64,000 nt of DNA from contig JARKIF010000001.1 in assembly GCA_029378245.1 (NCBI GenBank), forward strand, positions 3,906,001 through 3,970,000. Direction: 5' to 3'. The stretch is from Roridomyces roridus. Taxonomy: Eukaryota; Basidiomycota; Agaricomycetes; Agaricales; Mycenaceae. The notes below the pieces were generated by a model that was not told the DNA's origin, searched no databases, and saw only the letters and a program-made list of their open reading frames with translations. Within the stretch, counting starts at the first letter, position 1, and each line of letters opens with the position of its first letter. The position numbers were made by a program, and so were the translations under genes. Of the stretch, positions 18,080 through 48,174 are shown in pieces.

Positions 18080-18378
18080 GACGGTTCGGGACAAGATGAC
18101 TCGGCCCGAGTCGGATCACATGATGGCGACTGCCTTTGTCCTCCACCAATGACGACCATCCTGCTACGACGCGCGACTTTGAGCACTTGCCTCTGTGCTG
18201 CGTAGGAGCGGGCCATGCGCCCAGACGAATCTGGGCCCGCTCCGCGGAAGCAATCGATCAATGTCTCACTTTCTTCCGCTCCTTAAATTTTCGGGGCCAG
18301 CTCTCCTAACCCAACGCTTCTCTTTCCACAACCGCAACCTCTTGCACCCTTCAACACTCCAATATTCGACTTTTTGAC
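18080..18378. promoter_or_regulatory. Divergent promoter between F-box A and the kinase
   Basis: 299 bp separate two outward-pointing genes. The kinase-proximal part (from about 18187, ACTTGCCTCTGTGCTGC onward) is duplicated near 47275 upstream of the damaged kinase copy, including the GC-rich palindromic block around GGGCCCGCTCCGCGG. Conservation between the copies marks the kinase promoter. Confidence 0.5.
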
Positions 18379-19625
18379 ATGCCTTCTAATCCCAACCGTC
18401 TTCCTAATCTTACCGGCCACATCGTCGATGACGGCAGCCTTCAGCTCGAGAAGCTCGTAGGCGCAGGCTCATACGGCAATCTGTACCGAGCTTGCGACGC
18501 CGAGTCTACTCGCTCACGCCCCTCGTCATGGGCCTCCTCTTCCTCCGCTTCCTCCACCCCGTCCAGCTCGAGCTCGTCGTCCAGAGTGTTCGCAGTCAAG
18601 TGCCTGGCGAAACCGAACCTCGACAGCCGTGACGCCAAGCTGAACGAGCGCGAGCGTTTCCTTCACCGCAAGGTCTCCAGCCACCCTAACATAGTCACAT
18701 TCCACCGGAGCTTCGTGGATGACGAGCACGAGTACTTTGTCATGGACTTCCATAGGGCCGGCGACATGTCTCGTGCCATTGACGACTATGTCTACTACAA
18801 GGACACGCCGCTCATCAAGAGTACGTTCGCGGGCATCGTTGAGGCCGTTCTCTTTTGCCACCGTCAGGGTGTCTTTCACCGCGACATCAAGCCCGAGAAC
18901 ATTCTGGTCGACATTCTGGGTGGCAACCCCTGTTTGACCGACTTTGGACTGGCTACAATGTCCATAGTGTCGGAAACCCTGACGGGGACCAAGGCGTATA
19001 TGCCGCCCGGTACGTTTGCAGCCATCTCTTCCCCCTCCTGACTCACATCTCTGCAGAGTCCTTCCAGTCGGCGTACCACCCGGAGGATTCCGACGCTTGG
19101 GCTCTCAGCATCGCGCTGATCAACCTCGTCACCAGGCAGTGGCCCTGGACGTCCAGCAACCCCTGCCGCACCGGGTCCTTCAAGCAGTACCTTGCTAGTC
19201 CGGAGAACTATCTCCGTGAATCCCTCCCCATCTCGCCCCCTTTGGTAGACCTCCTCACGCGCTCGCTGCGCCTCAACTCCAGTGAGCGCTTGTCGATCGA
19301 GGAGTTTGCCAGCGAGGTGCAGGAGATCGACGAGCTCTTCATTAGCGATGAGGATCTCGCTCAGGCTCCCGTTCAGGTTCGCCGGGCGGCGAACTGTTCC
19401 GTCCGCGGCGTGGCATACGTCCAGGCTGTCTTCCAGGCTGTCGTCGACGTTGTCGCTGGCGTCGACTCTTCTACCAGCGGGAGCGAGGACAGCGTTCCTG
19501 ACCTCGCTCGCCCCACTCCCGACCCACTCACGCCTCTGCGTCTGCAGCCTGAGGTTGTCGAACCGAAACGCAAACCCGGCAAAGTCAAGTGCCTCGTCCG
19601 TGGTCTGCGCTTCTGGCGCAAATAG
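18379..19625 (+). CDS. Ser/Thr protein kinase (Ran1-like)
   Basis: Two exons, 18379-19009 and 19057-19625, encode 399 residues. Kinase motifs read in order: glycine loop GAGSYGNLYRA (about residue 30), a Ser-rich insert of some 25 residues, AVKCL with the ATP-binding lysine, catalytic loop HRDIKPENIL (about 170), DFGLA, and YMPPESF as the APE-like motif. All catalytic residues are present, so it should be active. The C-terminus after the kinase domain is acidic then ends in a Lys/Arg-rich segment (KRKPGKVKCLVRGLRFWRK). The single intron splits a glutamate codon cleanly. I compare it to fungal Ran1/Pat1-type kinases by overall look only. A frameshifted inverted copy lies at 45812-47074. Confidence 0.88.
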
Positions 19626-19956
19626 CGGCCTTCGTCTATCGGAAAATACTTAGCAAAAACATCATATAATTGGTGGAAAATACAATGCGCGGCTCGGAAT
19701 GTATGTAGTAGTTACTGACCAACCACAATGACATCGAAATTTCACAAGTCCTCTTGAGTCTTTGAGATGAAAGTGGGATCAGAGCGAAAGAGGAAAGTCT
19801 CGGCATCAATCCTCCTTTCTTCCGACTCTCATCATCCCTGTTCTAGACGCCCCTGTGCGCGCTGCTGGACTCCTTCTCAGCTCGCTGCATCCTTCAGGCG
19901 TACGTCCCATAACCCAGTATGGTCGGCTACATTGACTGACGATTCCCTTGAGACCG

Positions 19957-21564
19957 ATGGATGGCTTGCCAAACGAATTGCTGGATCGCATCTGCTCCTT
20001 CATGCATACAACGGAGCTCTGCACGACGATGCACATATCCTCCAGCCTTCGACGCGTCGCGTCGGCCCACTTGCTTTTCCAGCTAGGCATCTCGCAGGCC
20101 GACGTCCGAGCGGGCACCGTGACACTGGCGCTCTCCAAATCCCTTCACCTCATACTTTTCGTGGCCCACATATGCCCAATTCAGCGACTGGAGTGTTTCG
20201 CAAACTCAAAGAACATGCGAGCATTCGAGTTTCGGCGACTGGCTCCCATCCTGGGTGCGACGGCGCCCATTCCAGATATCTTGATCCACGACAAATTGGA
20301 GCATAGCCAACGGGAACATGGTCGCTCCCTCGTTCTTCATCTGCTCGCGCATCTCCCGCAAGCCGCCACGGACACCCTGTTGATTATCACGCGCTTTTCG
20401 ATCCATGTATCTCGCCACTGCTTTGGCCCACCCCCTCTGTTGGCCTTCCCCGGACTCCGCCAGATCTCATTCGCCTGGCTCCTCGTCTGTTTGCTCATCG
20501 ACATTCAGATATTGATCCTGTGCGCAGTATTCAACTTGTGCTCACTCATTTGGTGGTTGTTTCGTCGATCGGTGGGGCCCAGATGGTCGGTAGAAGATCG
20601 TATATCCGCAGACGTCTCCAATTCCAATTGGTTCCACTTCAGCGGAGGGATACGTGTCCAGAGTCTGCCGACAAATTACACACTGGTCACTCCGATCTTT
20701 AGGGAGAGCGGCTTCGTCATCGAGCCTCTGCACGGCGTCCCCGATTCGGTTTACTTGACCTGTCTCGCATCCCCCGATTTCCAGTTCAAGGATATCAAAG
20801 TGCAGTTGAATAGCCATATGACCTTTGCCGACCTCGTGGCATTCGTAGCCTGCCAGGAGGAACTAGCCTGCTCAACCAACTCGATTGCCAGGTCCTTCTC
20901 GCTACTATCAGCCTCGCCTCCTCACATCTCCAGCAAGATAACACGTCTCACCGGACCCGCCTCATACAGCCCCCATCTCCTTCCACTCACTCCACACGTT
21001 GAGCGGATCTACCTTTCCTTTCCTTCACTGGCGATTCGACTGCAAGTGATTTATATGATATATATTTTCTCCATTGGGCCACGGGTCTTTGACTACGTCG
21101 CCTATTGCACGACCCTCAATGCCATCGCTCGTCTCCCGGGATCGCACCCTCTCGCCCTGTCCTTCATCTTTGACCTCACCGAGGCGAACATCCCATGGCA
21201 AATGGATGCCACCGACGCCCCTCAACCGGAGTCGCAGCTCTACCGCGTTGAGCACCTTATGCTCCGTACCACCGAGTCCGCGCGCCAGACTGACATCTAC
21301 TATGACATTCCTTCCAGGACGCCTCTGCGACACGCATATGCCGCCTTTACGATCCGCGCGCTTGCGACGTGGCTGGCTCGTGTTTCCCGAGCTTGCGGCG
21401 CGTGTCGTTCGACCAGGGCGCTGTTGAGGCCATGTATGATGTCGCAGAGCCAGCGTCTCGAGGTGGTGGAGGCGATTGCTGGGTCGTGTGGTGGGTTGAG
21501 TGGTGCGGGAGATGTCCGTTTTCAGATTCGGAGGGAGGAGAGGATGGGGAGCGCGCTTTGGTGA
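19957..21564 (+). CDS. F-box protein, frameshifted near its 3' end
   Basis: Single open frame starting MDGLPNELLDRICSFMHTTE, a canonical F-box, then SSSLRRVASAHLLFQLGI. Long leucine-rich and hydrophobic stretches follow, including AWLLVCLLIDIQILILCAVF. Comparison with the inverted paralogue (43876-45482) shows that this copy has one extra nucleotide near 21375. That puts VSRACGACRSTRALLRPC out of the ancestral frame until the frame is regained near MSQSQRLEVVEAIAG. An extra G just before the end causes early termination at MGSALW. The first 460 residues are unaffected. It should be an SCF receptor if expressed. It lies 331 bp after the kinase, same strand. Confidence 0.75.
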   Translation: MDGLPNELLDRICSFMHTTELCTTMHISSSLRRVASAHLLFQLGISQADVRAGTVTLALSKSLHLILFVAHICPIQRLECFANSKNMRAFEFRRLAPILGATAPIPDILIHDKLEHSQREHGRSLVLHLLAHLPQAATDTLLIITRFSIHVSRHCFGPPPLLAFPGLRQISFAWLLVCLLIDIQILILCAVFNLCSLIWWLFRRSVGPRWSVEDRISADVSNSNWFHFSGGIRVQSLPTNYTLVTPIFRESGFVIEPLHGVPDSVYLTCLASPDFQFKDIKVQLNSHMTFADLVAFVACQEELACSTNSIARSFSLLSASPPHISSKITRLTGPASYSPHLLPLTPHVERIYLSFPSLAIRLQVIYMIYIFSIGPRVFDYVAYCTTLNAIARLPGSHPLALSFIFDLTEANIPWQMDATDAPQPESQLYRVEHLMLRTTESARQTDIYYDIPSRTPLRHAYAAFTIRALATWLARVSRACGACRSTRALLRPCMMSQSQRLEVVEAIAGSCGGLSGAGDVRFQIRREERMGSALW

Positions 21565-27844: not shown

Positions 27845-28638
27845 TAGATATGGGAGACCAAGGCGCTGGCCAGGGTCAGTCAACGGCCACACAACGCGAG
27901 GACTACAACACACACATGAAGATATCTTGATACAGTTAGGACGGCAAGACGAGATGAAGGGTGCCGGTGAGGCCACTCAGGGGTCCGCGTTTCTTCCACA
28001 AACATGGCGAAAAAGAGAACGCGCTTCCACACGCGCTCACGGGTCTCCTCGGAAGCGGAAACCATGGGGACAAAGTGGGGGTTTAACGAGGGAGTGATTT
28101 CAGGCTCAGTGTACGTCCGAGGCTGTCCGAGGCTGTTCTTTGTTTAGGTCGCTAGGAGGATCTTCAGGCACGAGAGAGACTGTAAGATTATAGAACTTGC
28201 CATAATTTAGTGTACTCTGCCAACTTTTTGAGTCGCGGTTCCGAGTCGATTTGTGAGACCAAAGAGTCGCAAAAGCGTGGGTCGATGAACGGGCGCTGGA
28301 ACCGCAGCACCTCCAACGAATGAATTTCACCGAGAGACAGAATGTGCCGGGGAATGCGGGTGAATGAGGAATGGAGGATGATAGTGTGTACTTGGGACTC
28401 GCGAAGGGCCTCACTCATCTTCTCCTGCCTCAGGTCACTCAAGTCAATCGGATACCCATATGGATATCCGAATATTCGCTAAGCAGGATTGGAATTAGCG
28501 ATCCAAGCATTGAGACAAGACGAGGAGTTTACCATCTTATCCCACGAGCGAAAGCATTCGTACATCCTCTTTGCCAAACTGTCCACCTGCTTATTCTTGA
28601 GGTTCGAGGGATTGAGCACGATGACACGGTGGGGATTA

Positions 28639-29678
28639 CAGCAGTTCCCGTAAATAATGTCAATCATGAGTTTTTTTTCCCGTGTCATCCCAAAAAGGAA
28701 ATTCTGGCTTTCTCGCCTTTGTCTCGAGTCTTCTCCACCCTTCTCCACCCGCCGCCCATTGACTTGTTACAGAACACTCTCCCCAAGGCCCTCAAGCTTC
28801 GCAGTAACACATACTGAGCTGTTCTTCCCCGTGGCCAAGCCCAGTCATCACCGTCGGTCGACAATGTCTACTGCGTTTGCGCGGGTGGATCTGCACCCAT
28901 CGGCATCCGAAACAACTAGCGGGCAGCCCGGAAAGCTCGTAGGGCCGGTTGGGGGCGACGGTGGCTGGACACGATGCGGAGATGATTGCAAGATGGAGTG
29001 TCGCGGCATCCATCTTGCCCAGGTGCGTAGTCCGACCTACTGTCTCGACGCCAGAAGCTTATGAGCCTTTCCATGCTGTCTTGTTTGGCGATGCTGGACC
29101 TCCCGCTCTCTTTGCATCATATCGCGCAGACATCCACCGACACGTCACCCACATCCGTCAACCCAGACCCAGTCGCCCACATCCACCTGTGCCGTTTCGC
29201 CCATCCGCCCGCCCCACAAGCCGCTCAGGACGCTCAGGCCACTTGCGTATACAACATCCTTCGTTGTCTTCTGACAGCCATGGTGCATAACTACGACGGT
29301 ACGACCCACGAGCGGAAGCACTGATGCAGCGTCCTCCGTGCCATCCCGTCCTCTTCTTGTGCGCAGCAGACGGCGGTTTGATCTTCCCAGTCGTGCGCCT
29401 GCATAAGTACGGCCATGTACCGGCCTCGTCTTACCTGGGCTCGCCGACCCGGCAGTCGCGGGCGCAGCCATTGTGCAGGGCGCGTTTCACGTCTACGTAG
29501 TTTTACTGTAGCTCCAAACCAATGAATTTCTCGTATACATACTTCAGAATGACGCCCTGTGTATGCACTCAGCCTCACGAGGGCAGAGGACGCGAGACGA
29601 AGCCGCGATGGCCTGAATTTCCTTTTCGGGAAAATGAAAAAAAAGTTCGGTGTTTGACATTATTTTCAGGAACTGCTG
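28639..29678. mobile_element. 1.04-kb TA-target element with GC-rich cargo
   Basis: The ends begin CAGCAGTTCC on both sides (28639 and, inverted, 29678). They stay alignable as imperfect inverted repeats for about 100 bp (…AAATAATGTCAA, then an eight-T run and GGAAATTC). TA lies at 28637-28638 and 29679-29680. It sits in exon 1 of the F-box gene B/C. The interior is GC-rich with open frames such as 28657-29064 and 29061-29324, none recognised as transposase. The composition resembles host exons more than the AT-rich element at 26282. Confidence 0.8.
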
Positions 29679-30257
29679 TAATGAGAGGGAGGCCTTTGCA
29701 CAGCCCGCTGGTGTTATCGGACGACCAAATGTACAACGAAAGAACGAGGTCGGTGATATTGGGCGCGGACTTGAGAATTGTATGCATCGCCGACCCGTAC
29801 CCGCCCTCGACTCTCACCTTCTTGATGAAGGGGCCGAACTCTGGGTGAGCTTTGAGGACGGGCTCGAGGGCGTTTGCCTGGGCTTTGGATCGGAGAACGA
29901 CCACGTTGTAGAGCAGGGGTGTCGCGACGCGAAGCCAGTCTTTGCAGACCAGCAGGTAAGCGGAGGTGGATGGGGGGTAGTTGGAGAAGGGGGAAGTATC
30001 GGAAGTATCCAAGAAGAGTTCTCCGGGCACTTTGAGAGCGGGAGAAAGGATCTCGGAGAGGATTTCATCGGGCAGCATGGTGGTGGTTCCGGACAAGCCC
30101 CGTTGATCGCAACACTGATGGGCCAAAATTGCTCGTTGACCTTTTCTATGTATGTGAAATGCTCCACGACTTATAATTGAAATGCCCATATTGACTAGCA
30201 TCAAAATTTCTGGTGCGCAAGGCCCCAAGCACCTTCCCAAGTTGCAGTGCACTCAGC

Positions 30258-32706: not shown

Positions 32707-32905
32707 GAGCCATTGACAGAATCGCGAACAAAGGTCGGCGCACTCTGCCGTTGAAACAATTGGACCGAGACCATGTGGCATGATGGACAGAGTCAAAGAG
32801 TGAAAGCGGTGCAGAACAAATGAGACCACATCAATATCGCCTTCGGCCCTAAAAGGCAACAAGTACACGGCTCTGTCAATATCCCTCTACAATCTCCGCC
32901 GAGCA
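32707..32905. repeat. Three-copy block spanning an F-box promoter and a gene end
   Basis: This block includes the upstream region of F-box D and the last codons of the kinase-fusion gene. It matches 43728-43905 (the shared stretch from 32781 is offset by exactly 11,000 bp) and, more weakly, 50816-50995 upstream of F-box F. Shared landmarks are GACAGAGTCAAAGAGTGAAA, ACCACATCAATATCGC and AAAAGGCAAC. Confidence 0.75.
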
Positions 32906-35900
32906 CTCGAGATACGGCTCAAACCGTCTCATCCTCCAGGTCATCGCAAAACCATTCGCCTCCACCGCAGATCGGAAATGCAGATCCAGAGAATCCGGCT
33001 CGTCCACGGATGTGTAGACGAGTAACGGCTCTACAAGAGCACTTTGTGGAAGTTGTGCGTGCTCCATCAGATTGTCGAATATCTCCGTCCTGAATGTCTC
33101 CTCTGGGTTAGAGAGGTCGAGGGATGGAACCGGACCGAATCGGACGAGAACCGTCTGTGCCGAGGGATTCGAGGGACTGCGCTGCTGCGGGGAGGAGGTC
33201 CTATTTTCTCGTGATGGGGCCAGCGGTAGGCCGGTAGTGTTCTGATTCATCGAGGAGAGCATATCATTGATCACGAGAAGAGCCGGGCGCTCCGCAGCCT
33301 CAGAATTCCAGCACCACTGGCAGATTTCCCAAAGTGTATCCGGCATCTCGACTCCCGCTTTATCGGCGGGTTTGTCGGGATACGGATTTTGTAGAGTCTG
33401 TCCGTCGGAGATCATTTCCATTCGGCTGAAAGGTACAGTGCCTTCCGTCCAGATCTTCGAGGACAATTAGATTTCTTCTAAATCTAATGAAATGAACGAG
33501 TACTCACCTCACAACAGACACAAGCAAAGGCCCAGACATCCGACGCAACAGTGCGCCGGAAACGCATTCCTGGGGGCTGATTCAGCAACTCGGGAGACAT
33601 CCACTGTCTAGATCCGCTGTGAGACGATGTGGTGTCGGCCTCGACGAATGCCGCCAGGCCAAAATCACTGAGACATGCACGCCCATTTTGTCCGATGAGT
33701 ATATTGCGCTGTGTATGAAATTCATGATCAAGTCATGTACAACGAGGGAGAGGAGACCTACGCCACACAAGTCTCCATGAATCACATTCCGTGAGTGCAA
33801 ATACTCGAGCCCGTCGATGATGTTGCGGCACTGGGAGAATGTCAGCGCGCGGGGAAAAAAAAGTGAAGTCTTCCTACCAAGTCAAGCGCATACGAACCCG
33901 CAGGCGAATTCTTTGCCAAAAAGTCCAACACACTCCCTTGGGCCATCCACGGAGACACCAAGGCCCGCTGTGGACTATCAAAAGTCGCCGAATCAATTCC
34001 CAAGAAAGGGACGACATTCGGATGCTTCAGATACCGCCACACCAACGCCTCCCTAGTAAACTTGTCCCATGTTCGGCGCTTCTCCTCCTCGGAGTGGTGC
34101 CCGAATATCGGGAGCACCTTGAGCGCCACTTCCACTGGCGCCGTGCCCACGGGGTCGGGGTAGAAACCCCGATATATGATAGCGAAACCACCGCGGTTGA
34201 CGGGGTGGTCACTCCGGAGGCTCACATTGGAGATGTCGAAACCATCGGGGAGGTGACCGAGATGCCCGACGAGGGCGTTGAGAATACGGTGCGTCTGCTT
34301 CAAGAAAGCTTCGAAAACCTGGCTGTTTTCTTCAAAGCCTTTGCTGAAGCCGTTGTCGAGTACTGAATGGATTAAATTGAGCACCCCCTTTGAATGTTCC
34401 CTGGGTACAACCTCGAGCGCTTCGCGGTAGTTGTCGAGAAGGAAAAGCTCTTGAAGCGTTTCTGCTACTTTGGTGTTGTCTCTGGCGAGCGCTTGCGAAA
34501 ATCGGGACGGAGCAATGGAGGGAATAAGGGAAATAATCTGAAATGTTAACTGCGTTCAAACAGTCAAAGAAGATCTACCTTTTGAATGTGCCTACGGTCC
34601 TGGGAGACTTTGTACCAATAGAAGAAAATATCGAGTGCTGTTCGGTCTGCAGGGTCTGTGTTCTTTCTGGTCCGGTTCTTGGATATTTGAGTGAGTTCAG
34701 GCCAAGTCCTGGTTGAAATCATGAGCGATAGCGGGAGGAGTCGAAAAACGGCCCGCCTTTCAGCGTCTAAACCCCCCATCCGATATACACCCTCCACCAT
34801 GAGTTTGAATACATTCTACAAGTATGATGAGCTCGTCAAAACCCAACAAAAAAGAACGCACCTCCGAGAGATGCGGCGGGCGAAGAGTCCCCCGCGTCTC
34901 CGAATATAGCAATAAACCAGGCTCAACGATATGCATTATTGGCAGAGACCCCAAGTTCAATGTTTGTTTCTTGACAACACGGCGGAATAGACGCGGTTCC
35001 GTGATGATGACGATTCGCAGAACCCAGGAGTATTCTTCCTTCAATTGGCGCTGCAAGATATGAATGATCTCCCACATCTGCGCAGCCTGCTCTTTGTTTT
35101 TGATACCGTGCACGACAAGGACTGTACCGAACATCTTGAGCTTCATGAGTACACCCTGATCGTCATAGCGGCGCTCGAACGGTTTGCCGATGCAGTCGTT
35201 CAAAAGGTCCTGCACGACAGTTGAAAGCACCGAATCAATTGAACAGGATTCAACTTACTTTTGGCTCGCGATACCAAGTTGAACTGGATTCAAGCATAGG
35301 CGGGACGAGATAGAATCTCCGATGTATCGGAAACCAAGCGAATAGTTGACTGATAACCTGGGGAAGCGTGTATCCCACCGTCCTCCGGAAATCTAGCGAT
35401 GCAGATGCCAGGCCGTGCACCAACGCCCAGCCCACTGTCTGCGCCCTGCTCACGTCGACCAAGCCTGCCCACAACCTCTTCTCGCCCTCAAAGATGCTGT
35501 TTGCTGCACATGCGAGACGATGGATGGAGCGTGGGTCCTCGACCGTGATCCACAGAAATTCGCCCGATTCGAGGGCTAACCAGCGAGATAGGTTTTCCTC
35601 GAATCCTGCTGGTGGGCTCCAAGAATCATCCGCAGGTGGTTGCACGGGGTCCGGCTCGGCGAGAGGAGTATCTTCTAGCTCGATCGGCTGGGCTTCCGAA
35701 TCGTCCAACGGCAAAGCAATCGCTCCCGCTCGAGAACGCTTCAATAGCCGTTTCAACCGGTCCCATAATCTTGTGCGTCTGGGCTGCGTTGTTTCAGGGC
35801 GCCCGAAGGCGAGGTATCCCAGGCATGTCAAAACTACACAATCAGCTGCGTCATCTTGCACAAGAGTGAGTCGACGCACTCATGTCACCCATCATAAAAT

Positions 35901-36592
35901 CTCGAAACTCCTTGTATCCCACAAGCCACCCTTCAGTGGCAAACAAGATCCATTGGTATAGAGCGAACGTCTGGAATGAGTCTGAGCATCCAATCGGTGG
36001 GAAAGGCAATGAGAGGGAGCTGACCCCAGTCCAGGTAATGATACTGTAACCAACGGCGAAGCGGAGCAATAATACAATGATGCTGGCAAGCATTATCTTC
36101 GAGCATTTCAGCGTAAGCCCAGACAAACCTGAAAACGCTGGTGACCCCTGCGACCGCCTACGAGTTACAGGCTCAATAGGAGAGGATCTGATATCCAAGA
36201 AAGGGACCTACAAAGAAGAATACACGGAAGAACGCATACGGCAGATCTCGAAAGTTGTACCCAGTGAGATATAATGTGAATTGGCATAGACTTCCGACGA
36301 CGAAGAGACTCACTGAAACGAAGTTCAGACAGATGAAGACAAGAGAGAAAGAGAGCGGATACGAACTGCAGAACGTCGACGCAAACCCATGAAATTCCTT
36401 GACCATGCCTGCCAGAATGTATCGGACAAGTCGGCCGACGCCGGCCCAGGTGCCTTGGTCTTTCCCTATATCCGGCGGGTCCCACTTGCTGTAGTCTTCG
36501 CCTCTGAGTTCGCTCAAGAGTGCCAAGACGACGCCGAGAGCATACGCAGGGCCCCAGATCCAGCTGTAGACGCGGGGAGAAAGCTTTGGCAT
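32876..36592 (-). CDS. Membrane protein with NACHT-like remnant and TKL kinase (copy 1)
   Basis: A dozen or so exons. The start at ATG 36592 (MPKLSPRVYSWIWGPAYALG) matches the start of its divergent paralogue. The N-terminal third has four or more hydrophobic spans (VFICLNFVSVSLFVVGSLCQ, MLASIIVLLLRFAVGYSIIT and others). Next, SRWLALESGEFLWITVEDP, LVHGLASASLDFRR, TVLVVHGIKNKEQAAQMW and RIVIITEPRLFRRV line up with the NACHT layout (W-x-P-loop, Walker B, sensor 1). The GxxxxGK[ST] lysine and the Walker B acidic cluster are missing. The C-terminal TKL kinase shows NRGGFAIIYRG, VALKV, REALVWRYLKHPNV, HGDL (in place of HRDL) and SDFGLA, so catalysis looks possible. A final 90-residue domain (VRFGPVPSLDL...HFRSAVEANGFAMTW) is conserved in copy 2. 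It ends EIVEGY. No break was seen. The location is presumably a membrane with the kinase cytosolic. Confidence 0.72.
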
Positions 36593-37005
36593 GACGGAGG
36601 GAAAACAAGGTTTCTTGGCGCCCATCTCACGACTACATGTGCGCGGCGGCGGATCGCCGGCGGTTGGGAGCTTCTCGACAGTTTGACCGGGACACAAGAC
36701 AGAGGTAAACAATCGAAGACCGCATGGCCCGGTGTGGAGCGCTCATGGACGTTGCTGCAAAGGTCTGCGGCCCATCTGATGCGCCGGAACAGCCACAGTC
36801 CCGACGCTTTGATTGCTACCACCTTTCTGCACTCGTCCTCATCTCTCACACCCGAACCAGCCCGATTCTCTAGTGCAAATATTCCCCGCGACAGGCTGAG
36901 AAATTTCTCAAGAAGCGGTGGACACATGGCATGATTGCATGATTAAGATGAACTTGCCGGAGGATGGGCGTCTATCGAAGATTCCACTTCTTTTCCTTCT
37001 CCGTC
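36593..37005. promoter_or_regulatory. Shared divergent promoter of the kinase-fusion pair
   Basis: 413 bp separate the two start codons (36592 minus, 37006 plus). Short frames overlap it but none is supported. The arrangement would allow co-regulated expression of the two paralogues. I see no clear TATA box for either. Confidence 0.5.
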
Positions 37006-40000
37006 ATGAAGCTCAAGATACCTCCCCGCGTCTACAGCTGGTTATGGACGCCAGCGTATGCAGTGGGAGTCGGCCTGGCTGTCTGGGGCGTCATAGACAC
37101 CCTACACGAGACAGGGAAGTTCTCGTTACCCTTCGTGTTTATGCGTATGTACTCCGACAGCCTTCTCGCTCAGGCCGTCTTAACACATTCGCAGTGTTTG
37201 GCTTCATCATAGCGAGTCTGCGGCAGTACTTTCTGTACTTTGTGTTCGGGGACTACTTCACCCGTGGTGTATATTTCGGGAACCGCATGTTCTTCACGGT
37301 CAGTCCGGGTTGTATCTCCCGAAGCCATCCATCCAATGCATCATATAGGTGTTCGCAATGGTGACCATGCTAATTTGGTGCGCTCAATCCGTCTTTTTTA
37401 TGTCGATTAAAACTCTTTGCCAGGGTCATGGCGTTACTGCTCTCCCGTGGCCAAGACAAAATGAAATGGGGCGGGGTCAGTTCAATCCCTTTCTCTGTGG
37501 CTTGTCTCACAAAGATTCTAGATATGTGCTCTCTACGAATGCACCCTGTGTGTAATTGAAGAATGGCTAGTTGGAGCTGTAGAATTCCGAGACTTCATGA
37601 TCAGTGACATGAGTGCGTGCAGGATCTTGCTAAATTACTTCGCTCATGGGCTGAGGCCAGCTTTGACGTGTCTCGGATACCTCGCCTACGGAACCTCGAA
37701 ACCGGCATATACAAGTCGCATGAGGAAACTTTGGCCCTGGTTGAGAACGTTCCTGAGGCAATCTCGTGCGGGACCTATCGCATTACCAGCCGACGACGCT
37801 CCCAGCCTCGAGCTAGAGACAGCCGGGCGCCGTATGCGCGGTCCATGGAGTGAGGTTGCAGGATTCTCCGAGAATATAAACCACTGGTTGCACACGACGA
37901 AATCCCTCTGGATTACTGTGGACGATCCAGAATCTAGAAAACACCTCGCAGATGCAGCATACACACTCTTCAAGGGCGAATCTGAGGGCAGTTTGCGTGT
38001 TGCGTCAATCGACATGAGTAACACCATCTCGGCTCGCTTCCACCTCGTTCACGGCTTGGCTTCTGCATCCACGGAATTCAGGCAAGAGCTGGAGACGACC
38101 ACGCCCGACATAATCAGCGACCTGTTTATCTTGTTCCCGCTTTATTCAATCTACCGACGGATCCGTGGTGCATCCGATATAAAGCGTCCTGACACTCCGT
38201 TAAAGGCGAGTTTTGCGAAGGTCTTACTTGTCACAATCTTGAAATTCAACCCAGGCCTTCGTCAAAGATTATATCTCCAAACCGCTCATTCGACTCTACG
38301 AGCAGCGACTCCTCGGCCCCAGCACCCCCGTACAGCCGCAAATGCTTCTCGTCCTGTATGGGATAAAAAATACGGCGCACGCTCGGGAGATTTTCGATAC
38401 AATCCGGCATTTACAGATCGACTTAAAGGACTACCCCCACGCGCTACGTATCGTAGCGACTTCGGAGCCTGCGTTTTTCCGCAACGTCACCGATCAACGG
38501 GCGGCAGCTTTGAGGTGCCTGGAAGTGGTGCATATCGTCGAGCCTAGCTTCATGATCTATTCGGGAACCAGTACGGGAACCAGTACGCCTCGCACGCCGT
38601 ATCTATCTAAGGTTTGGATTCGTATTATTTCTTCGATTTGGTGAGGACTCACAGTGCTGGTTAGAATATATTTCTTGTTCTCGTCGAGGAAATGTATCGG
38701 TTGGGGGGCTTGGATGCTCAAAAGTGAGTAGCCATAGAAGGACCAGTCGTTTGCTAAGCCTTTCGAACAGGATATGGCCCGAAATCGAGCAGATTTCCCG
38801 ACACGGGCTCGAACCGGATCAGGAGGCGGATAGAACTACATTAAGGATTTTTGCACAGCTGCACCGAGTGGCAGAGGACCGGGGGCGAATTCAAAAGGTA
38901 CGACCATCCCCATCATGCCGGCAAATTATCGACGTTCCGTTTCAGATCCTTTCTTCTATGCCCACAGTGACTCGCTCCAGAGTGTTTCAAGCACTCGTCA
39001 AGGATAACGCCAAGGTCGCTGAATTGCTCCAAGAGCTTTTTACGGTAGAAAATTACCGGGAAGAAATCAAGCTCGTCCCAAATGACCACTCATCTGCCGT
39101 ACTCAACCTGATTCATTCGGTAAGATATCGTATTACCAGGCAACCCAATGCTCATTTGAGGCACAGATACTCGACGCTGGTGGCGTCTTCAAAGACAACG
39201 CGGAGCTATTCAAAGCCTTCTCCAAACAGGCGCGCCGCATCCTCAGTACGCTTGTTGGTCATCTTGGCTTGCTCCCCGATGCGCTGGAAGTCTCCAATGT
39301 CCGCCTCGAAAAAGACCACCCGGTCAATCGTGGTGGTTTCGCCATGATTTATCGCGGATACTACGAGTCGACCACCGAATCCGGCACACAGCAGATTCAA
39401 GTTGCACTAAAGGTGATACCGATATTCGGGCACCTTTCGGACGACGAGAAGCGTCGCACGTTGGAGAAATTCTCTAAAGAGGCGTTGGTTTGGCGGTATC
39501 TGAAGCACCCGAACGTCATCCCTTTCTTAGGGATTGATTCTACCACGTTCGAAAGCCCACAACGCGCGTTGGTATCGCCGTGGATGGAGCAGGGAAGTGT
39601 GTTGGATTTTGTAGCAAAGAATTCTCCGGCGGCACAGCATGCCCTTGAACTGGTATGCGTTTTCAGAATCACCCATTGAGTGCGGCTCATCATCTCCTCA
39701 GTATCGCGATATCATTGAGGGTCTTCGGTATCTACATTCGCAGAATGTAATCCACGGAGACTTATGCGCCGTACATCTTCATTCCACCCAATCATATCAG
39801 TGGATTTAACTTGAATTTCACAGCGCAATATACTCATCAACGACGAGGGGCGGGCATGCCTCAGTGATTTTGGTTTGGCTGCTTTCGTGGAGGCCGATAC
39901 GTCTGCGAAAACGTCTTCTCGCAGCGGATCGAGGCAGTGGATGTCGCCCGAACTGTTGAATCCGCCGGACACTCATTTTCGGCGTACCATCCCATCCGAT

Positions 40001-40688
40001 GTGTGGGCTTTTGCGTGTGTTTGCTGTGAGGTGAGCACCATATCCTTCTTGGTTGTCAAATGCTCATAGATGACGAAAGATTTGGACCGAAGGCACCGTA
40101 CCCTACACCTACCTAGGCAAAGGCGACCCAGGCATCTTCTTCGCTCTCGGAAACGCTGTACAAGATCCCTACCTCCACCAGCCCCTCGATAAATCAGGGA
40201 ATTCAATGCCAGACGACCTTTGGGAACTCTGCCAATCGTGCTGGAAGGTCGAGCCCTCTGGGCGCCCGGCTGTTCAGGCTATTGTTGACAAGCTCTCCGA
40301 GATGAAGCCCCTAGAGGATATCGACACGCATGCAGATGAAGAGACTCGGATACCTTCTCGGAGTAAAGGAAAACGACGCGCCAACGCCACGTCAAATTCC
40401 TCTTCAACGCAACCAGTCGTCGTCCGATTCGGCCCATTTCCAGCCCTCGATTACACAAGTCCAGAGGACATATTCACCACGGATATCTTCGAGAGCTTGT
40501 CAAAGCGCGCGAAAGTTCCGCGGAACGCCCTTGCCGCACCAGTCTCCGTGTACGCGTCGACGGAGGAACCAGATTGTTTGTATCTGCATTTTCGGTCGAT
40601 GGTGGAGGCAAACGGGTTTGTGATGACTTGGGAGTTGCATCGGTTCCAGCCATATCTGGAGTGTTCGGCGTCGATTGTGGACGAATGA
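37006..40688 (+). CDS. Membrane protein with NACHT-like remnant and TKL kinase (copy 2)
   Basis: Paralogue of the gene at 32876-36592, in opposite orientation. ATG 37006 gives MKLKIPPRVYSWLWTPAYAV. Membrane spans follow (FGFIIASLRQYFLYFVFG, VFAMVTMLIWCAQSVFFM), then EEWLVGAVEFRDFMISDM and LTCLGYLAYG. The NACHT-like region has TTKSLWITVDDPES, HLVHGLASASTEFR, MLLVLYGIKNTAHAREIF and LRIVATSEPAFFRNV, again with no P-loop lysine or acidic Walker B. The kinase carries NRGGFAMIYRGYY, VALKVIPIFGH, EALVWRYLKHPNV, HGDL, NILI, SDFGLAAFVEAD and SGSRQWMSPELL. After IWTEGTVPY comes RPAVQAIVDKLSEM, then the conserved C-terminal domain (VRFGPFPALDY...HFRSMVEANGFVMTW...ECSASIVDE). All exons are open and splice sites are plausible. 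The role is unknown; membrane-proximal signalling is inferred. Confidence 0.72.
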
Positions 40689-40820: not shown

Positions 40821-43295
40821 TCACACCAATCCAAATAGGTACTTGTACATCGCCATTGCCCCGAGCAGTAAGATGAGAGCAAGTCTGACGGATATCGGAC
40901 TCCAACGTGAAGGAACAACATCGTTGAACCCTTGAGAGAAGGTGATCAATCAGACAGATGTCCAATCCAACCATTGAACGAACCTTTATCTCCGCCAGAA
41001 ACAGCTCCGGCAGTGGTATCTGGATCGTTTTCAGATACTGAGACAATTGGTCAGATTCACTACGTATTTGTATTGCAGATGCCAGATGCGACCGGACGAA
41101 CCTTCAAGAATGCGAGACAATGGATGGAGTCCATCGCCATCAACCTCATAAAGCGGGTAATTGTGATGTTGAGCCGCTTCCTGGCTATACGGATCGAAGC
41201 CCTTTGCAGTGTGGAAGTCTCGCAGGGCTTCGTACACTTTGTCCTCCCACGTCCGAATCCAATACCTTGTGGAGAGTTGTAGGGATGGGAACCCGAAGCG
41301 CTCTGCCTGCTCGGGGCTCAGCGCCGGAGCCCCTGATGGGTCAAGAGACCAGTAAGTAGGACGCTCTGCCCACTTGCGGCCACCAGTAGTAGGTTCAATA
41401 AGTTCCTCCCACGGACAAATGAACAAGAATCCTTCTTGGGTGCACTGTTCCATTTGCAATAGATCCACTCGGAAGAGAAAATCAATCCGAGAGATGAAAC
41501 CTGCCATGGCGTTCATTTACAAAGTTCTATATGCGAGCCAAAGGCATACCATAATCATCGAAGTTTTTAGTGATCCCCGAGGCATGGAAGATGTGATTGG
41601 CTTGACTGAGCCATGGACTATGAAGAAAGAAGCGACAATATTCAAGCAACCCATTGTTTCCCAGCTTGCGAATCTCGTCAAAACTGACCCTGCGGTACAA
41701 GGGCTAATTCAGATAAACGCCGCATCAATGTGAATCTTACCTCTTCCAGCCATATACTGGCTCGAACCTCCATTCCAAAGGGCAGCGCACAGCAGGCCGA
41801 AAGTTGGGTAAGAACGCGATACGGGTCGCCTCTGTCGGTGCTTGTACGTCCAGAGAGCTCAGTTTTACCACAGAGCCGACATGTAGATGCATGTATGCTT
41901 CAATTGGCAAGTTCAACTCCAAGCACCGCGCCAAATAGCGGAGCATAGTCATCTCGAGCTCCCGAAGCGAAAGGAGCGACATGATTTCTGTCTCCGAAGG
42001 TAGGTCGTTGGTGATGCCACAATCCACCGGAGAGAAAGTCGCCTCCCAAAGAGGCCAGAAAAAAGCTTCATTTGGACGCGGTCCAGCATCTGCATATTCG
42101 ACGCAGATACGACCTGTCGAAGCACGGGCCCAGAATATTTCTTCAAAGCGAGGCTATATCATTGCGTTTGACAGGGGCCTGGGGAAACAAGTTCACGACA
42201 TACTAGCGTGCGTCCCCTCATTACAGCGGTCCAATGACGTCTCGCACTCTGAAAGGACATGAATCTTGCGACGCATCGTATAATTATGTGCTCGAACTCG
42301 CCTTGAAATCGGAAGACTATGTTTGCAATAAGAATCATTGAAATATCCAGAAGGAGCAAGACCAACCCCGCGTGTTACAACATAAGCAGTGAGGAGAGGG
42401 CTGTGAAGCATGGGTTTTATGCAGTAATCGTCGAATGGGATCAAGTCTATACATCGGCGGAGTCGTGAGCCAGACATTGGCGACAGATAGCCCGACTTGC
42501 CATCGTGAAAGATCGTGGCACACAGCTGGGAGGACACTGATGCAATTGCACAGAGCTGTACGAGATGTGGATCGCTGTAAGAATTTGAGCTCATCTCTCA
42601 CATAAGAGACGTATACGACGCTATACCGGAGCTCCAAGTGCTTGGCAATATCTTCTAACCATTTCTGACGACGTCAAATGAGCCAAGTAAAAGAAAGGGA
42701 ATAAGTCATACCTTTTCGGCGTCGCGACCCTCGTAAACAGCCACAGCATTGGCCGTATTTTGCTGTGCAGACCTCACCCTGGCGGAGTAAAGTTTCCGAA
42801 TGACGCGCTGACGCCGCTCAGGCCTGACAACAGCTGTGCGAGCACCGTACTTGGCTTGAATTTCATACTGAAGGTCGATATCGCAGAATGGAATCGTGCG
42901 GACCGCTATTGTCAGAACTTGATTTCAGCCTTTTCACCACAAAGTTGAATACAACCGACCTTCTGGAGTGTCCATGTGTTGGGTGACATAGCTGGTAAAA
43001 TTACCGTTGTTGACGGTGAGGTGCCGAGAATTTGGGAAGAAAGCGCCGGCGTTTATTCTACACCGCCAAAGTGCTGTCAGCCGACAGTGTCCAGATAAAT
43101 GGGCCCGGGGTTTCCAGGAAATGAGCAGACGACGTACCCAACGGACTGCGAGACAGAAGTCGAGAATGAACATCCAAATGGCGGCGCCGGCTTATCTCGA
43201 CCATCGTCGTCGTCGAACCGCGGTCCTTTGTCCTGCTCGCCGACCTGGACCGCAGCCACTGGTGGCACCGGCTGCATATCATCGAAATTATCCAT
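40821..43295 (-). CDS. Kinase-like protein with C-terminal membrane anchor (basidiomycete family)
   Basis: Starts MDNFDDMQPVPPVAAVQVGE. It continues with FFPNSRHLTVNNGNFTSYV, the linker block RTIPFCDIDLQYEIQAKYG, and NAVAVYEGRDAEK...WLEDIAKHLELRY, which resembles a degenerate kinase N-lobe. HATIFHD-like and DLIPFDDYC segments lie across an intron whose donor appears to be GC rather than GT (about 42496). The conserved block PTYWSLDPSGAPALSPEQAE, FGFPSLQLST and HTAKGFDPYSQEAAQHHNYP is what I recall from a large agaricomycete family without assigned function. A last exon encodes SPISVRLALILLLGAMAMYK and YLFGLV, a tail anchor, with the stop at 40821. It is convergent with the kinase-fusion gene ending at 40688. 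Confidence 0.65.
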
Positions 43296-43727
43296 GAATC
43301 GCTGGAATGGTAGGAGGGCGAGATGTGGTGTTGGTAGGAAGTCGACCCAGTTGGTGTGAGAATCCAGGTTCAGAATAGGTATGCTGCTGCAACGAGAAGA
43401 CCATGAGGCAAGAGCCAGAATAAGCACACTCGCCGCGGCAATCTTCAACTGCTGTATGTACACAAGCTGTATGATGGGAGACCTGCGACCAAGCGTGTAA
43501 AAGCGGAAATGGTAGCAAGAACAGCTTCCGGTGGGTAAGCGCCAATCGAGTTGCGTCGTCATGACCAGGCTGCCAGCTTTCCCAGCCCGATTCGATCTCT
43601 GCCGCCGGTGGGACTAGCAGACTTACGCGCGCGCTTGGAGCTCTGGACGAGGGATCCGTTCAACAGTGAGTTATCCACATACTGGGATACAAATAGGAGA
43701 CAATGAGTAGGAGAAAATTGGGATTGA
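43296..43727. other. Intergenic, upstream of the kinase-like gene
   Basis: The longest open frame (minus, reaching 43562) contains a hydrophobic segment (IAAASVLILALASW) in frame with the gene's ATG at 43295. The protein could therefore start further upstream and carry an N-terminal membrane span. I kept the internal ATG because the family usually begins near there. Confidence 0.35.
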
Positions 43728-43905
43728 GCCATTGGCACGATTGCAAACAAAGGTCGGCAAGAACAATTGGATCGAGATCATGACGGACAGAGTCAAAGAG
43801 TGAAAGCGGTACAGAACAAATAAGACCACATCAATATCGCCTTTGACCCTAAAAGGCAACAAATACACGGCTTTGTCAATATCCTTCTACAATCTCCGCC
43901 TCTGC
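43728..43905. repeat. Orphan copy of the F-box D/F promoter block
   Basis: Matches 32707-32905 closely and 50816-50995 more weakly. At the other two sites the block stands upstream of an F-box gene; here no F-box gene follows. It includes the last codons of the F-box gene ending at 43876, which therefore shares its EIVEGY ending with the kinase-fusion gene. Confidence 0.7.
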
Positions 43906-45482
43906 AAGTTTCAAGTATTCACCAAAGCGTGCTCCCATCCTCTCCTCGTCCGGAATCTGGAAAGCGACATCCGCAACACCACGCATCCCAGTACACACCA
44001 TAGCAATCGCCTCTGCCACCTCGAGACGCTTTTGCTGCGACATATTCTCGACGGCGCCCTCGTCGAACGACACGCGCCGCATGCTTGGGAAGCAAGCTAG
44101 CCATGGCGCAAGTGCATGGATCGTAGAGGCGGTGTATGCATGGGGGGTAGGCATCCTGGAAGGCATGTATATGTAGCACGCAGACTCGCTGGTGCGTAGC
44201 ATGAGATGCTCAACGCGGTAGAGCTGCGTCTCGGGTTGGGGGGCGTCGCTAGCGTTCATTTGCCATGGGAGATCTTTGACGGTAAGGTTGAAGATGAATG
44301 ACAGGGAGATAAGGTGCGACCCCGGGAGACGAGCTATGGCATTGAGGGCCGTGCAATAGGTGGCGTAGCGGAAGAACTGTGGCCCGATATGGATCACTCG
44401 TAGCGTAGGCACGAGCGAAGGAAAGGAAAGGAATATCCGCTCGACGTGCGGAGCGAGTGGAAGGAGATGGGGGATGTAGGAGGCGGGTGCGGTGAGATGT
44501 GCTATCTTGCTAGAGAAGTGAGGAGGCGAGGCTGATAACAGCGAAAAGGACCGAATCGAGTTGGTTGAGCAGGCTAGGCTGCGTAGTTCCTCCTGCCGGG
44601 CTACGAAGGCCACGAGATCGGCAAAGGTCATATGGCTTTTCCCGTCCACTTTTACATCCGTAAACTGGAAATCAGGGGATGCGAGACAGGTCGAGTAAAC
44701 CGAATCGGGGATGTCGCGCAGAGGTTCAATGACTGACTCTGCATGAAGACTGGAGTGATCAGTGTGTGCTTGGTCGCAAGACTCCGGACGCGTATTCCTC
44801 CCCCAAAGTGGAGAAGAAAATCGGAGACGTCTGCGGATACACGCTCTTCTACCGACCATCTGAGCCCGACCAATCGACGGAACAACCACCAGAGGAGCGA
44901 ACACAAGTCGTAGACTGCGCAAAAGATCCACATGTAAATGTCCAAGAACACCCCGACACAGAGCCAGGCGATTGTCATTTTAGGGAGCGGGGGGGAAACC
45001 AATGACGGGGGTGGTCCAAACCGGGGGCGAGATACATAGGTCGAATGGCGCGTAATGATGAAGAGTGTGTCCGTGGCGGTTTGCGGGAGGTGCACGAATA
45101 GATGAAGAGGGAGGGAGCGACGTTCCTCATATACATCCTCCAAATTGTCGTGGATCAAGATATCTGGAATCGGCGCCGTCGCACCCAGGATGGGAGCCAG
45201 TCGCCGAAACTCAGATGCTCGCATGTTCTTTGAGTTTGCGAAACACTCCAGTCGCTGAATTGGGCATATGTGGGCCACGAAAAGGATGAGGTGAAGGGAT
45301 TTGGAGAGCGCCAGTGTTACGGTGCCCGCTCGGACGTCGGACAGTGGAATGCCCAACCCAGAAAGCAGATGGGGCGAAGCGACACGTCGAAGGCTGGAGG
45401 ATATGTGCATCGTCGTGCAGAGCTCCTTTGTATGCATGAAGGAGCAGATGCGATCCAACAATTCGTTTGGCAAGTCATCCAT
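43876..45482 (-). pseudogene. F-box protein copy 2 of the inverted duplication, frameshifted
   Basis: Begins MDDLPNELLDRICSFMHTKE and is clearly homologous to 19957-21564 along its length. A net loss of four nucleotides near 44745, after LATKHTLITPVF, shifts the frame. The upper open frame stops soon after, while the ancestral frame continues as VIEPLRDIPDSVYSTCLASP to the end. The C-terminus keeps the unshifted sequence lost from copy 1 (SMRRVSFDEGAVENMSQQKR and DEERMGARFGEY). It ends AEAEIVEGY, a tail shared with the kinase-fusion gene through the block at 43728-43905. It probably yields only a truncated receptor. Confidence 0.75.
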
Positions 45483-45811
45483 CGGTCTTGAGGGAATCGT
45501 CAGTCATGTAGCCGACTATACTGGGTTTGGGACGTACCCCACAGTCGAGGCCAGCAGCAGAGTCCAGCAGTTCGCACAGGGGCGTCTAGAACAGGGATGA
45601 TGAGAGTCGGAAGAAAGGTCCAGGAGGATTGATTGCCGAGACTTTCTTTCGCTCTGATCCCACTTTCATCTCACAGACTCAAGAGGACTTGTCAAATTTC
45701 GATGTCATTGTGGTTGGTCAGTAACTACTACATACATCCCGAGCCGCGCATTGTATTTTCCACCAAATCATATGATGTTTTTGGTAAGTATTTTCCGATA
45801 AACGAAGGCCG

Positions 45812-47074
45812 CTATTTGCGCCAGAAACGCAGACCACGGACGAGGCGCTTGACCTTGCCAGGTTTGCGTTTCGGTTCGACCGCCTCAGGCTGCAGACGCA
45901 GAGGCGCAAGTGGCGTAAGTGGGCTGGGAGTGGGGTGACCGAGGTGCTCCTGTTCGATACCCGGAACGCTGCACTCGCTCCCGCTGGTAAAAGAGTCGAC
46001 GTCATCGACAACGTCCACGACCGGATTGAAAACATCCTGGACGTATGCCACGCCGCGGACGGAGCACTGCGCTGCACGGCGGACCTGAACGGGTGCCTGA
46101 GCGAGGTCCTCGTCGCTGATGAAGAGCTCGTCCATCTTCTGCACCTCGCTGGCGAAATCAGCGATCGACAACCGTGCCTCTGGGTCGAGGCGCAGCGAGC
46201 CCGTGAGGAGGGCGGCCAAAGGGCGCGAGATGGGGAGGGAGTCGCGAAGATAATTCCCCGGACTAGCGAGGTATTGCTTGAAGGACGTGCTGCGGACGGG
46301 GTCCGCCAACTTCCAGGGCCACTGCCTGGTGACGAGATTTATGAGCGTGATGCTGAGAGCCCAAGCGTCGCAATCCTCGGGGTAGTACGCCGACTGGAAG
46401 GACTCTGAAGAGATGTGAGCGGTGAGCGGGAAAGAAACAGCGGGAGACGAACCGGGCGGCATATACGCCTTGGTCCCGTCAGGGTGTCGGACACGACGGA
46501 CATTGTAGCCAGTCCAAAGTCGGTCAAACAGGGGTTGCCACCCAGAATGTCGACCAGAATGTTCTCGGGCTTGATGTCGCGATGAAACACACCCTGACGG
46601 TGACAAAAGAGGACGGCGTCGACGATGCCCTCGAAGGTGCTCTTGCGGCGTGTCCTTGTGGTAGACGTAGTCGTCAATGGCACGATACATGTCACCTGCG
46701 CCATGGAAGTCCATGACAAAGTATTCGTGCTCGTCATCCACGAAGCTCCGGTGGAAGGTGACTATGTTGGGGTGGCTAGAGACCCGGCGGTGAAGACAGC
46801 GCTCGAGCTCGTTCAGCTTGGCGTCCCGTCTGTCGAGGTTCGGTCTCGAGAGGCACTTGACGGCGAACACTCGGGATGACGAGCTCGAGCTGGACGGGGT
46901 GGATGAAGCGGATGAGGAGGAAGCCCATGACGAGGGGCGTGAGCGAGTAGACTCGGTATCGCAAGCTCGGTACAGATTGCCGAATGAGCCTGCGCCTACG
47001 AGCTTCTCAAGATGAAGGCTCCCGTCGTCGACGATACGGCCAGTAAGATTGGGAAGAGAGTTGGGTGAAGGCAT
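45812..47074 (-). pseudogene. Ran1-like kinase copy 2, catalytic core out of frame
   Basis: Begins MPSPNSLPNLTGRIVDDGSL and aligns with the kinase at 18379. Two deletions relative to that copy are visible: five nucleotides (CTCAT) at the 46645/46646 junction and one G within 46472-46477. Together they remove six bases, so the frame is restored, but about 55 codons between them are read in the wrong frame. The catalytic loop (HRDIKPEN) and DFG still exist in another frame and are absent from the predicted protein. The frame before and after stays open to the basic C-terminus (KRKPGKVKRLVRGLRFWRK). A translated product would be a catalytically dead kinase. The intron donor is GTTCGT. Confidence 0.8.
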
Positions 47075-47387
47075 GGCAAAAAAGTCAAATGTTCGAGTGG
47101 GGAAGGCAGTAAGAGGTAGTGGTTGTGGAAAGAAAAGCGTTGGGTTAGGAGAGCTGGCCCCCCGAAAATTTAAGGAGCGGAACAAAGTAAGACATTGCTC
47201 GATTGCTTCCGCGGAGCGGGCCCAGATTCGTCTGGGCGCATGGCCTGCTCCTATGCAGCACAGAGGCAAGTCTTCAGAGTCGTGGCTCGCAGCTTGGTTC
47301 GCAGCTCGATGGTGAAAGAAAAGGCTGAGATTTGATGATGCGTCAACAGATGCAAAGCATCTACGCCTTTGATCCTGCCAGCTCAGC

Positions 47388-48174
47388 ATGATTTCCTCTT
47401 CGCCCTGCCCTCATCTCTTGCAAAGCAACGATGTGCCGCTGGACGCAGACGTTGCTTCAATCCGCCGTTACATCTACGAAAGCCAGTCGCGTATGGGTCA
47501 GTTCAACTCAGTTGGAGGCCCGAATCAACGAATCGCGCGTCAAGATGCATGACCGCTGCTCCCGACCTTGTGTACTGTGGGATTGCCTCCAAATAGCCCT
47601 CACCTTCTCTTGACGGCGTCGTCATAGTACACCGTCACTGCTCCGTCGGCTTTGCGTGGAAACCAGCTTCTTGTTGGACCATATCACTGCTCCGATGCTC
47701 GAGTATTTTGTCTTCGAGGGACGCATTGATCCAGCACTCCCCTTCATAGAACGCTCATCGTGCGTACTGCGAAGCCTCGTTCTCACGGAGTACACTTTAT
47801 CATCTTCGAGCGCTCTCATCTACCTCCTCCGAGCCTTGCCGAATCTCGAATCCCTCATCCTCGACAAACGCGGGAGTGGAGTGAGGGACATCATACCCAT
47901 ATTTTGTTCTGACTCGCCGAATGTCTGCCCCAATCTCATATTCTTGGCGCTCCCTTGGAGTGAATCACTCGACACGCACATCTTCCCGTCCGTGCTTGCC
48001 ATGATACGATATCGTCATCCGCAGAGGCTCCGCACGCTGCGCCTTTTGTCGGTGCATCATTATTCCAATATTCCTTCCCAGCAACGGACGTTGGCGAGCG
48101 AGTTTCCAGAGTTGGATGTTGTTATGTTGGGCGGGAACCAGAGGACGATGTTTCTGGCCGAGTGCTGGATTTGA
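47388..48174 (+). pseudogene. F-box protein relic with large internal deletion
   Basis: The start (MISSSPCPHLLQSNDVPLDA, then YESQSRM) matches the beginning of the intact F-box protein at 61145. The F-box and central third are missing. The sequence resumes with leucine-rich 3' material from about 47656 (LDHITAPMLEYFVFEGRIDP, FIERSSCVLRSLVL, LLRALPNLESLIL) and ends FPELDVVMLGGNQRTMFLAE. Stops separate the two parts. The upstream GCAAAGCAT motif is shared with the second relic at 55976. Confidence 0.7.

Follow-up and report, generated by a model that had tools for sequence, protein, structure and literature searches.

A head-to-head gene pair in Roridomyces roridus that joins predicted membrane helices, a NACHT-like domain without nucleotide motifs and a protein kinase

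In a 64,000-nucleotide window of the mushroom Roridomyces roridus (Mycenaceae; positions 3906001-3970000 of contig C1, in a 90.8 Mb assembly of 501 contigs), we studied two divergent genes, A (32876..36625, minus strand) and B (37006..40688, plus strand). Each is predicted to encode a hydrophobic N-terminal part, a NACHT-like domain, a kinase and a small C-terminal domain. We favor, at a probability of roughly 60%, a reading in which these are membrane-anchored proteins with a NACHT-derived scaffold that lacks an ATP switch and with the kinase as output. The missing motifs, the retained kinase residues, a deposited protein (P0061) that joins the domain to the kinase, and Mycena and Favolaschia proteins built to the same design were all seen directly. 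This bears out an earlier note on this DNA, which had described a head-to-head pair with shared architecture.

The NACHT-like pseudo-NTPase domain occupies residues 252-478 of A (34889..35618, minus strand, as is every feature of A below; hhalign, predicted model and fold comparison) and residues 202-431 of B (37849..38572, plus strand, as is every feature of B; hhalign). At the place of the P-loop, A reads LWITVEDPRSI (35523..35555) and B LWITVDDPESR (37906..37938). At the Walker B place, VLVVHGIKN in A (35096..35122) has His for Asp and LLVLYGIKN in B (38345..38371) has Tyr for Asp, while the sensor-1 strand position is held by LRIVIITEP in A (34994..35020) and LRIVATSEP in B (38444..38470). 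LVHGLASAS is present in both, so that every motif quoted in the earlier note (LWITV.DP, LVHGLASAS, VVHGIKN or VLYGIKN, and the LRIV strand) has been located.

To place these motifs in a wider context, we used a family alignment of 22 rows: 19 relatives, both window genes and, for a third copy named C, its N-terminal piece. The set was picked by C-terminal similarity to B residues 430-1020 and is no survey. The Walker A pattern GxxxxGK[S/T] occurred in 0 of the 15 rows that reach the P-loop site and was absent upstream of the kinase from all 22. Because none of these rows has a P-loop, its loss predates the duplications that gave A, B and C; the earlier placement of this loss before the A/B duplication was thus right, and the loss is older still. 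The Walker B Asp was replaced by His in 19 of the 20 rows reaching that site and by Tyr in B. That His is among the most conserved columns of the domain, as is the Trp of LWIT (15/15), and behind the fold lies a Tyr-Ser..Pro motif particular to the family (Ser in 21/21 rows, Pro in 20/21). On this sequence evidence, the domain is one that has been retained since the motif loss with a signature of its own. It is likely ATPase-dead; the earlier note had used that term outright, and the missing nucleotide motifs agree with it, although this is a conclusion from motifs.

Descent of the central domain from NACHT, previously read from motif order, now has a computed match behind it and is likely. 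Our reference was an alignment of 21 NACHT domains from the R. roridus genome, each picked because its open frame retains the P-loop pattern intact. The A+B+C alignment matched it in hhalign with a probability of 81.6% and a score of 42.8 (reversed, 11.2; top of 60 shuffles, 19.1). An 18-row family alignment reached 87.7% and 48.3, spanning model columns 3-229 vs. 30-235 and hence the whole domain, and the family without A, B and C still gave 81.7% and 45.1. Controls for the 18 rows were far lower, at 14.8 when reversed, 24.1 for the top of 100 column shuffles and 12.3-14.8 for five other segments of the family proteins. The family profile scored 12.1 against AAA, 10.7 against NB-ARC and 14.1 against kinase profiles from the same genome, which are weak controls given their small size (5, 3 and 4 sequences). 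Within the match, LWITVEDP was paired with the P-loop, LVHGLASAS with the NACHT helix TIAYQLA, VVHGIKN with VIDGLDE, and LRIVIITEP with LRFLIASRPE.

The middle region is also predicted to fold as a P-loop NTPase, with a mean predicted local distance difference test (pLDDT) of 82 and a predicted template-modeling score (pTM) of 0.80. A VIA-align comparison of the predicted domain returned 50 rows, all AAA+/STAND-type entries by title, so the model suggests a fold related to STAND ATPases rather than an unrelated one.

The kinase domain covers residues 654-929 of A (33248..34228; PF07714, E 8.9e-42; VALK, HGDLCGRN, DFG) and residues 608-893 of B (39296..40304; PF07714, E 2.8e-45; VALK, HGDLCARN, DFG). 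Kinase families were the only Pfam families to pass on either protein, and more than half of A and of B had no Pfam match. Catalytic residues are kept throughout the family rows (Lys in 21/21, HGD in 21/21 and DFG in 20/21, with EFG in P0070); having HGD instead of HRD, these are non-RD kinases. By sequence, the closest solved kinases were mostly tyrosine kinases (TKs), e.g., EGFR and ABL. TK-specific motifs have been given as AARN, a Pro before [KR]W[MT]APE and GxR[LM], in the available part of one study (PMC3937382). Among our 21 rows, the catalytic loop reads DLCGRN in 15, DLCARN in two (B and one relative), DMCARN in one, DLSGRN in one and DLRGGN in two, and CARN of B differs from AARN by a single letter. 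GSRQWMSPE has no Pro before WM[SA]PE. The tyrosine kinase-like (TKL) label proposed earlier is a fair one, and membership of the FslK lineage is possible.

In front of these domains, predicted membrane helices lie within residues 19-190 of A (35802..36571) and residues 9-149 of B (37030..37692). We saw no large outside domain, as an extracellular sensor would have, beside the membrane helices. In a full-length model of the relative P0064 (20 sequences; mean pLDDT 75.4, pTM 0.60), the NACHT-like part is followed by a helical linker, the kinase and a small domain predicted to run strand-helix-strand-strand-helix-strand. This C-terminal domain, without a Pfam match, corresponds to residues 961-1052 of A (32879..33154) and 930-1020 of B (40413..40685). 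Neither A nor B had a Pfam match, at E up to 1, to a repeat family (WD, ANK, TPR or LRR) that could act as a C-terminal sensor; the earlier description as NLR-like (NOD-like receptor) thus holds for the central domain and not for sensor repeats.

The fusion had been proposed for a search in other agaricomycetes, and it is there. With B residues 430-1020 as the query, a protein search brought up relatives in Mycena sanguinolenta, M. venus, M. leptocephala, M. capillaripes, Favolaschia claudopus and others, those in the named Mycena and Favolaschia species being 40-46% identical, and the same membrane/kinase fusion is annotated in Mycena and Favolaschia proteins. A search with whole B, using words from the first 500 residues, gave 59 matches, all with kinase domains. 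We built a hidden Markov model (HMM) of the middle stretch from 15 relatives, leaving out A, B and C; it matched 20 of the 178 proteins compared: its own 15 rows, P0061 (gene A, 1.2e-54) and four with part of the stretch (P0068, last part only; P0063, from the sensor-1 strand; P0075 and P0082, from shortly before Walker B). All 20 came from Mycena, Roridomyces or Favolaschia, and the one species checked per genus belongs to Mycenaceae. No other kinase protein among the 178, e.g., from Thelephora, Rhizoctonia, Pleurotus or Lentinula, matched at E up to 1. A, B and C grouped with 100/100 support in unrooted trees of both the NACHT-like domain (18 rows) and the kinase (22 rows, with C represented by one exon). 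It therefore seems that the two halves duplicated as a unit, separately from the Mycena and Favolaschia relatives sampled.

Both gene models are predictions, made manually from the sequence with each copy as the splicing guide for the other. Gene A has 13 exons (36625-36367, 36312-36212, 36157-36129, 36082-36025, 35970-35880, 35833-35259, 35209-34862, 34815-34757, 34708-34579, 34537-33878, 33830-33762, 33708-33508 and 33454-32876) and encodes 1052 aa. Gene B has 14 (37006-37144, 37195-37298, 37349-37377, 37424-37475, 37522-37612, 37661-38220, 38255-38611, 38665-38723, 38771-38897, 38946-39119, 39167-39652, 39702-39770, 39824-40030 and 40080-40688) and encodes 1020 aa. Introns measure 34 to 54 nt and are GT-AG throughout except for a single GC-AG in A. 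All 12 A introns match B introns in alignment column and phase, B having one extra, an agreement that is partly by construction because each copy guided splice choice in the other. Independent support for A comes from P0061 (FB45DRAFT_889933), which was deposited separately and shows no difference from A over 923 residues, from residue 130 through to the C-terminus, a part that spans 9 of the 12 introns. The least certain parts of A are its N-terminus and its in-frame first intron of 54 nt; N-terminal to residue 130, the P0061 model diverges. For B, the listed matches of the search with B residues 430-1020 contained no deposited model. The predicted start codons, at 36625 and 37006, are separated by 380 bp (36626..37005), which from the coordinates could be a shared promoter. 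Identity between the two proteins is ~40% over the NACHT-like part and reaches 71% in the kinase.

How such a protein might work can be outlined from these parts. The predicted N-terminal helix bundle would anchor each protein in the membrane. Because the P-loop and Walker B residues are absent, the central domain is likely no longer switched by ATP, and kinase control would probably be independent of the ATP switch usual for NACHT receptors. The pseudo-NTPase domain may be a scaffold for docking or self-assembly, the candidate partners being another copy of itself, the head-to-head partner or some of the genome's many ordinary NACHT proteins. Such a scaffold would gather kinase domains at the membrane and so lead to their mutual activation, and the kinase, as output with its catalytic residues retained, would phosphorylate a target near the membrane. 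The head-to-head arrangement suggests that A and B may work together. A bolder version, which we offer as tentative, is a signaling device of Mycenaceae membranes in which a NACHT domain permanently without ATP, with an invariant His where the Walker B Asp once stood, clusters the built-in kinase as a scaffold; it would be a fungal receptor kinase of NLR origin that taps the large NACHT repertoire.

Several results count against this picture. The last Walker B place is Asp in 4 of 19 rows (P0064, P0066, P0073 and P0077), so some nucleotide binding may persist; the reported loss of the Walker B acids accordingly stands for the first Asp, gone in 20/20 rows, and not fully for the last place. Two of the three glycines of the kinase loop are replaced (NRGGFA in A and B, mostly HGGFS in relatives), which calls for caution on kinase activity. 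Among 13 proteins with a full front end, hydropathy above 1.5 gave 2 to 4 N-terminal segments, not always four (the truncated P0061 has one), and the four long N-terminal helices of the P0064 model (2-37, 39-64, 70-97 and 100-150) have middling confidence, at pLDDT 55-84 per block. At E up to 1, the Pfam NACHT models (PF05729, PF24883) had no match in either protein or in any of 18 middle-region family fragments, where there were scattered chance matches only. With A+B+C as the profile, none of the 7991 candidates scored came out as a relative at E up to 1, although the relatives missed in this way do exist in the database, as the search with B residues 430-1020 found them. Against solved-structure sequences, too, the domain profile had weak matches only (best E 0.2). 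Foldseek matches to the predicted domain were weak, with one E below 0.001, TM-scores of about 0.2-0.33 and root-mean-square deviations of 15-21 Å over long gapped alignments. Orc/Cdc6 and RdrA matched the predicted domain as well as STAND proteins did, so structure alone does not single out NACHT. Finally, the real NACHT profile itself reached 50.8 with AAA, in a match of 40 columns surrounding the P-loop, and 30.3 with NB-ARC. The method therefore detects distant P-loop kin, and scores near 50 can also mirror that wider kinship and are in themselves no proof of NACHT.

The main rival is a membrane receptor kinase in which the remodeled NTPase-fold domain is a ligand sensor, its old nucleotide site, with the fixed His, binding a small molecule or protein and gating the kinase directly. 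The conserved Trp and His columns at the former nucleotide site would fit such a role, as would the family-only Tyr-Ser..Pro motif, but this conservation may also be structural, and we hold the sensor to be unlikely.

Less probable again is an origin of the domain in another AAA+ P-loop NTPase line, such as an Orc/Cdc6-like or RdrA-like one. RdrA and Orc5 were the top structural neighbors, with STAND proteins level within about one Z unit. The family profile, however, matched NACHT (48.3) and not AAA or NB-ARC, a comparison limited by the size of the latter two profiles and made without an Orc/Cdc6 or RdrA profile.

A decaying NLR relic, with the NACHT part as dead weight on an ordinary kinase and due for loss, would account for the transposon that breaks copy C and for the 7 of 22 aligned rows that stop short of the P-loop site, although annotation error may explain the latter. 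Yet the domain is retained in three genera with conserved motifs of its own. By the NG86 method, nonsynonymous divergence (dN) between A and B is below synonymous divergence (dS) both in the domain (dN 0.54, dS 2.28) and in the kinase (dN 0.19, dS 1.40); dS is saturated, so only this direction counts. We therefore rejected decay as very improbable. The idea that neighboring, separate genes were wrongly joined can draw on the deposited A model differing before residue 130, but P0061 agrees with A over the rest, shared introns run through both copies, the fusion is annotated in other species and the NACHT-like and kinase trees concur on A+B+C, which makes such an artefact barely credible and lets the membrane part and kinase read as one gene.

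Copy C lies at about 3.84 Mb of C1 and has the same design, broken by a ~2.6 kb insert and with a tail that looks frame-broken by eye; it entered our analyses in pieces only. The insert (about 3524-6150 of a second stretch, L025; C1 about 3840.5-3843.1 kb) contains a zinc-binding stretch and a zinc knuckle along with a transposase-like frame, and on its flanks is a repeat some 30 bases long. By eye, we take it to be a Mutator-like element (MULE-type). The window also contains two copies of a different kind of kinase, by eye Ran1-like (18310-19625, plus strand; 45812-47410, minus strand), that adjoin F-box-like frames (19936-21564 and 43876-45503), and an apparent third copy sits beside copy C in L025; these repeats point to duplications on a larger scale, inverted or segmental, in the surrounding part of C1. 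A short chimera on two contigs, perhaps alleles (C412:260929-261194 and C467:43697-43962), is 93% identical to a B kinase exon piece (39375-39509), adjoining a part 76-77% identical to the A tail (33000-33107). Elsewhere in the window, 28636-29681 (1046 bp, inverted ends) is 100% identical at several assembly places and is likely a recent transposable element, and reading frames at 56620-58535 (minus strand) have cysteine patterns that resemble MYND zinc fingers by eye. The flank at 41000-44000 is found at full length just once in the assembly, too, so that a single occurrence here says nothing about presence or absence between haplotypes.

If the scaffold reading is true, a STAND domain whose ATP switch is gone can still be retained for its shape, and phosphorylation signaling would be connected directly to the NLR repertoire of fungi. 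It would also mean that standard domain libraries hide such parts, given how much of each protein is without a Pfam match. As the family is small and defined, these ideas are testable. Mushroom genomes such as that of R. roridus are rich in both NACHT proteins and kinases, and NPHP3-type NACHT (PF24883) occurs at no fewer than 150 places here (at least 150, of which copies on paired contigs may be alleles). We also looked by eye for a canonical NACHT-kinase fusion in this genome. Among the matches listed, the sole neighbors within 10 kb were one pair on C212, repeated as a copy on C61. Its two members lie on opposite strands with about 5.5 kb between them and are therefore separate genes.

Among solved STAND NTPases, Avs3 (8dgc_A) and 8bob_C share 6 and 12% sequence identity with the A/B-type domain. 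We take the latter structure to be MalT; Avs3 and MalT are both ATP-dependent. Nearer to hand are the fungal NACHT NLR proteins (NPHP3_N, PF24883/PF05729), with which the central domain shares its motif order and, likely, common descent. A and B differ from them in having no P-loop, no Walker B Asp and no detected C-terminal repeats, and in having a membrane part in front and a kinase behind. The literature on these receptors, as far as the parts available go, describes LRR (leucine-rich repeat) receptors as almost absent from fungi and NACHT proteins as seen, at that time, solely in filamentous ascomycetes (PMC2939053, 2010), a view now outdated because of the many PF24883 places in R. roridus. 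In the accessible portion of a survey of fungal NLR effector domains, transmembrane parts go unmentioned and kinase appears solely in the reference list, twice (PMC9815663).

The kinase half resembles the TKL/FslK kinases described in available excerpts of two papers, being PF07714-type, expanded in Agaricomycetes and without the Pro before W[MT]APE (PMC3937382, PMC2838846, the latter on the TKL expansion in Laccaria). Further domains are given for only 16 of 241 FslK members (PMC3937382, in part), whereas A and B carry an extra front half invisible to Pfam. In concept only, NRCX of Nicotiana is alike, as an atypical NLR that has lost an executive feature and modulates others; it retains its P-loop, and the part of that paper at hand mentions neither a kinase nor a membrane part for it (PMC9851556). 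In the literature searched, which mostly did not cover subscription papers, we found no paper on a membrane/NACHT-like/kinase family and no described mushroom receptor kinase that joins the three in one chain. The closest precedent combines NACHT and kinase in one protein: PKinase (PF00069) is tabulated among N-terminal domains of fungal NLRs, and non-canonical P-loops are noted, in the portion of that study available (PMC4986451, 2014). That pairing is therefore not new, and the earlier suggestion of a new signaling design in fungi has to be narrowed. By contrast with those NLRs, A and B have the kinase at the C-terminus, have lost the NACHT motifs and have gained predicted membrane helices. 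The parts are known, and what is, to our knowledge, new is their order with a C-terminal kinase, the membrane part and the apparently dead NACHT.

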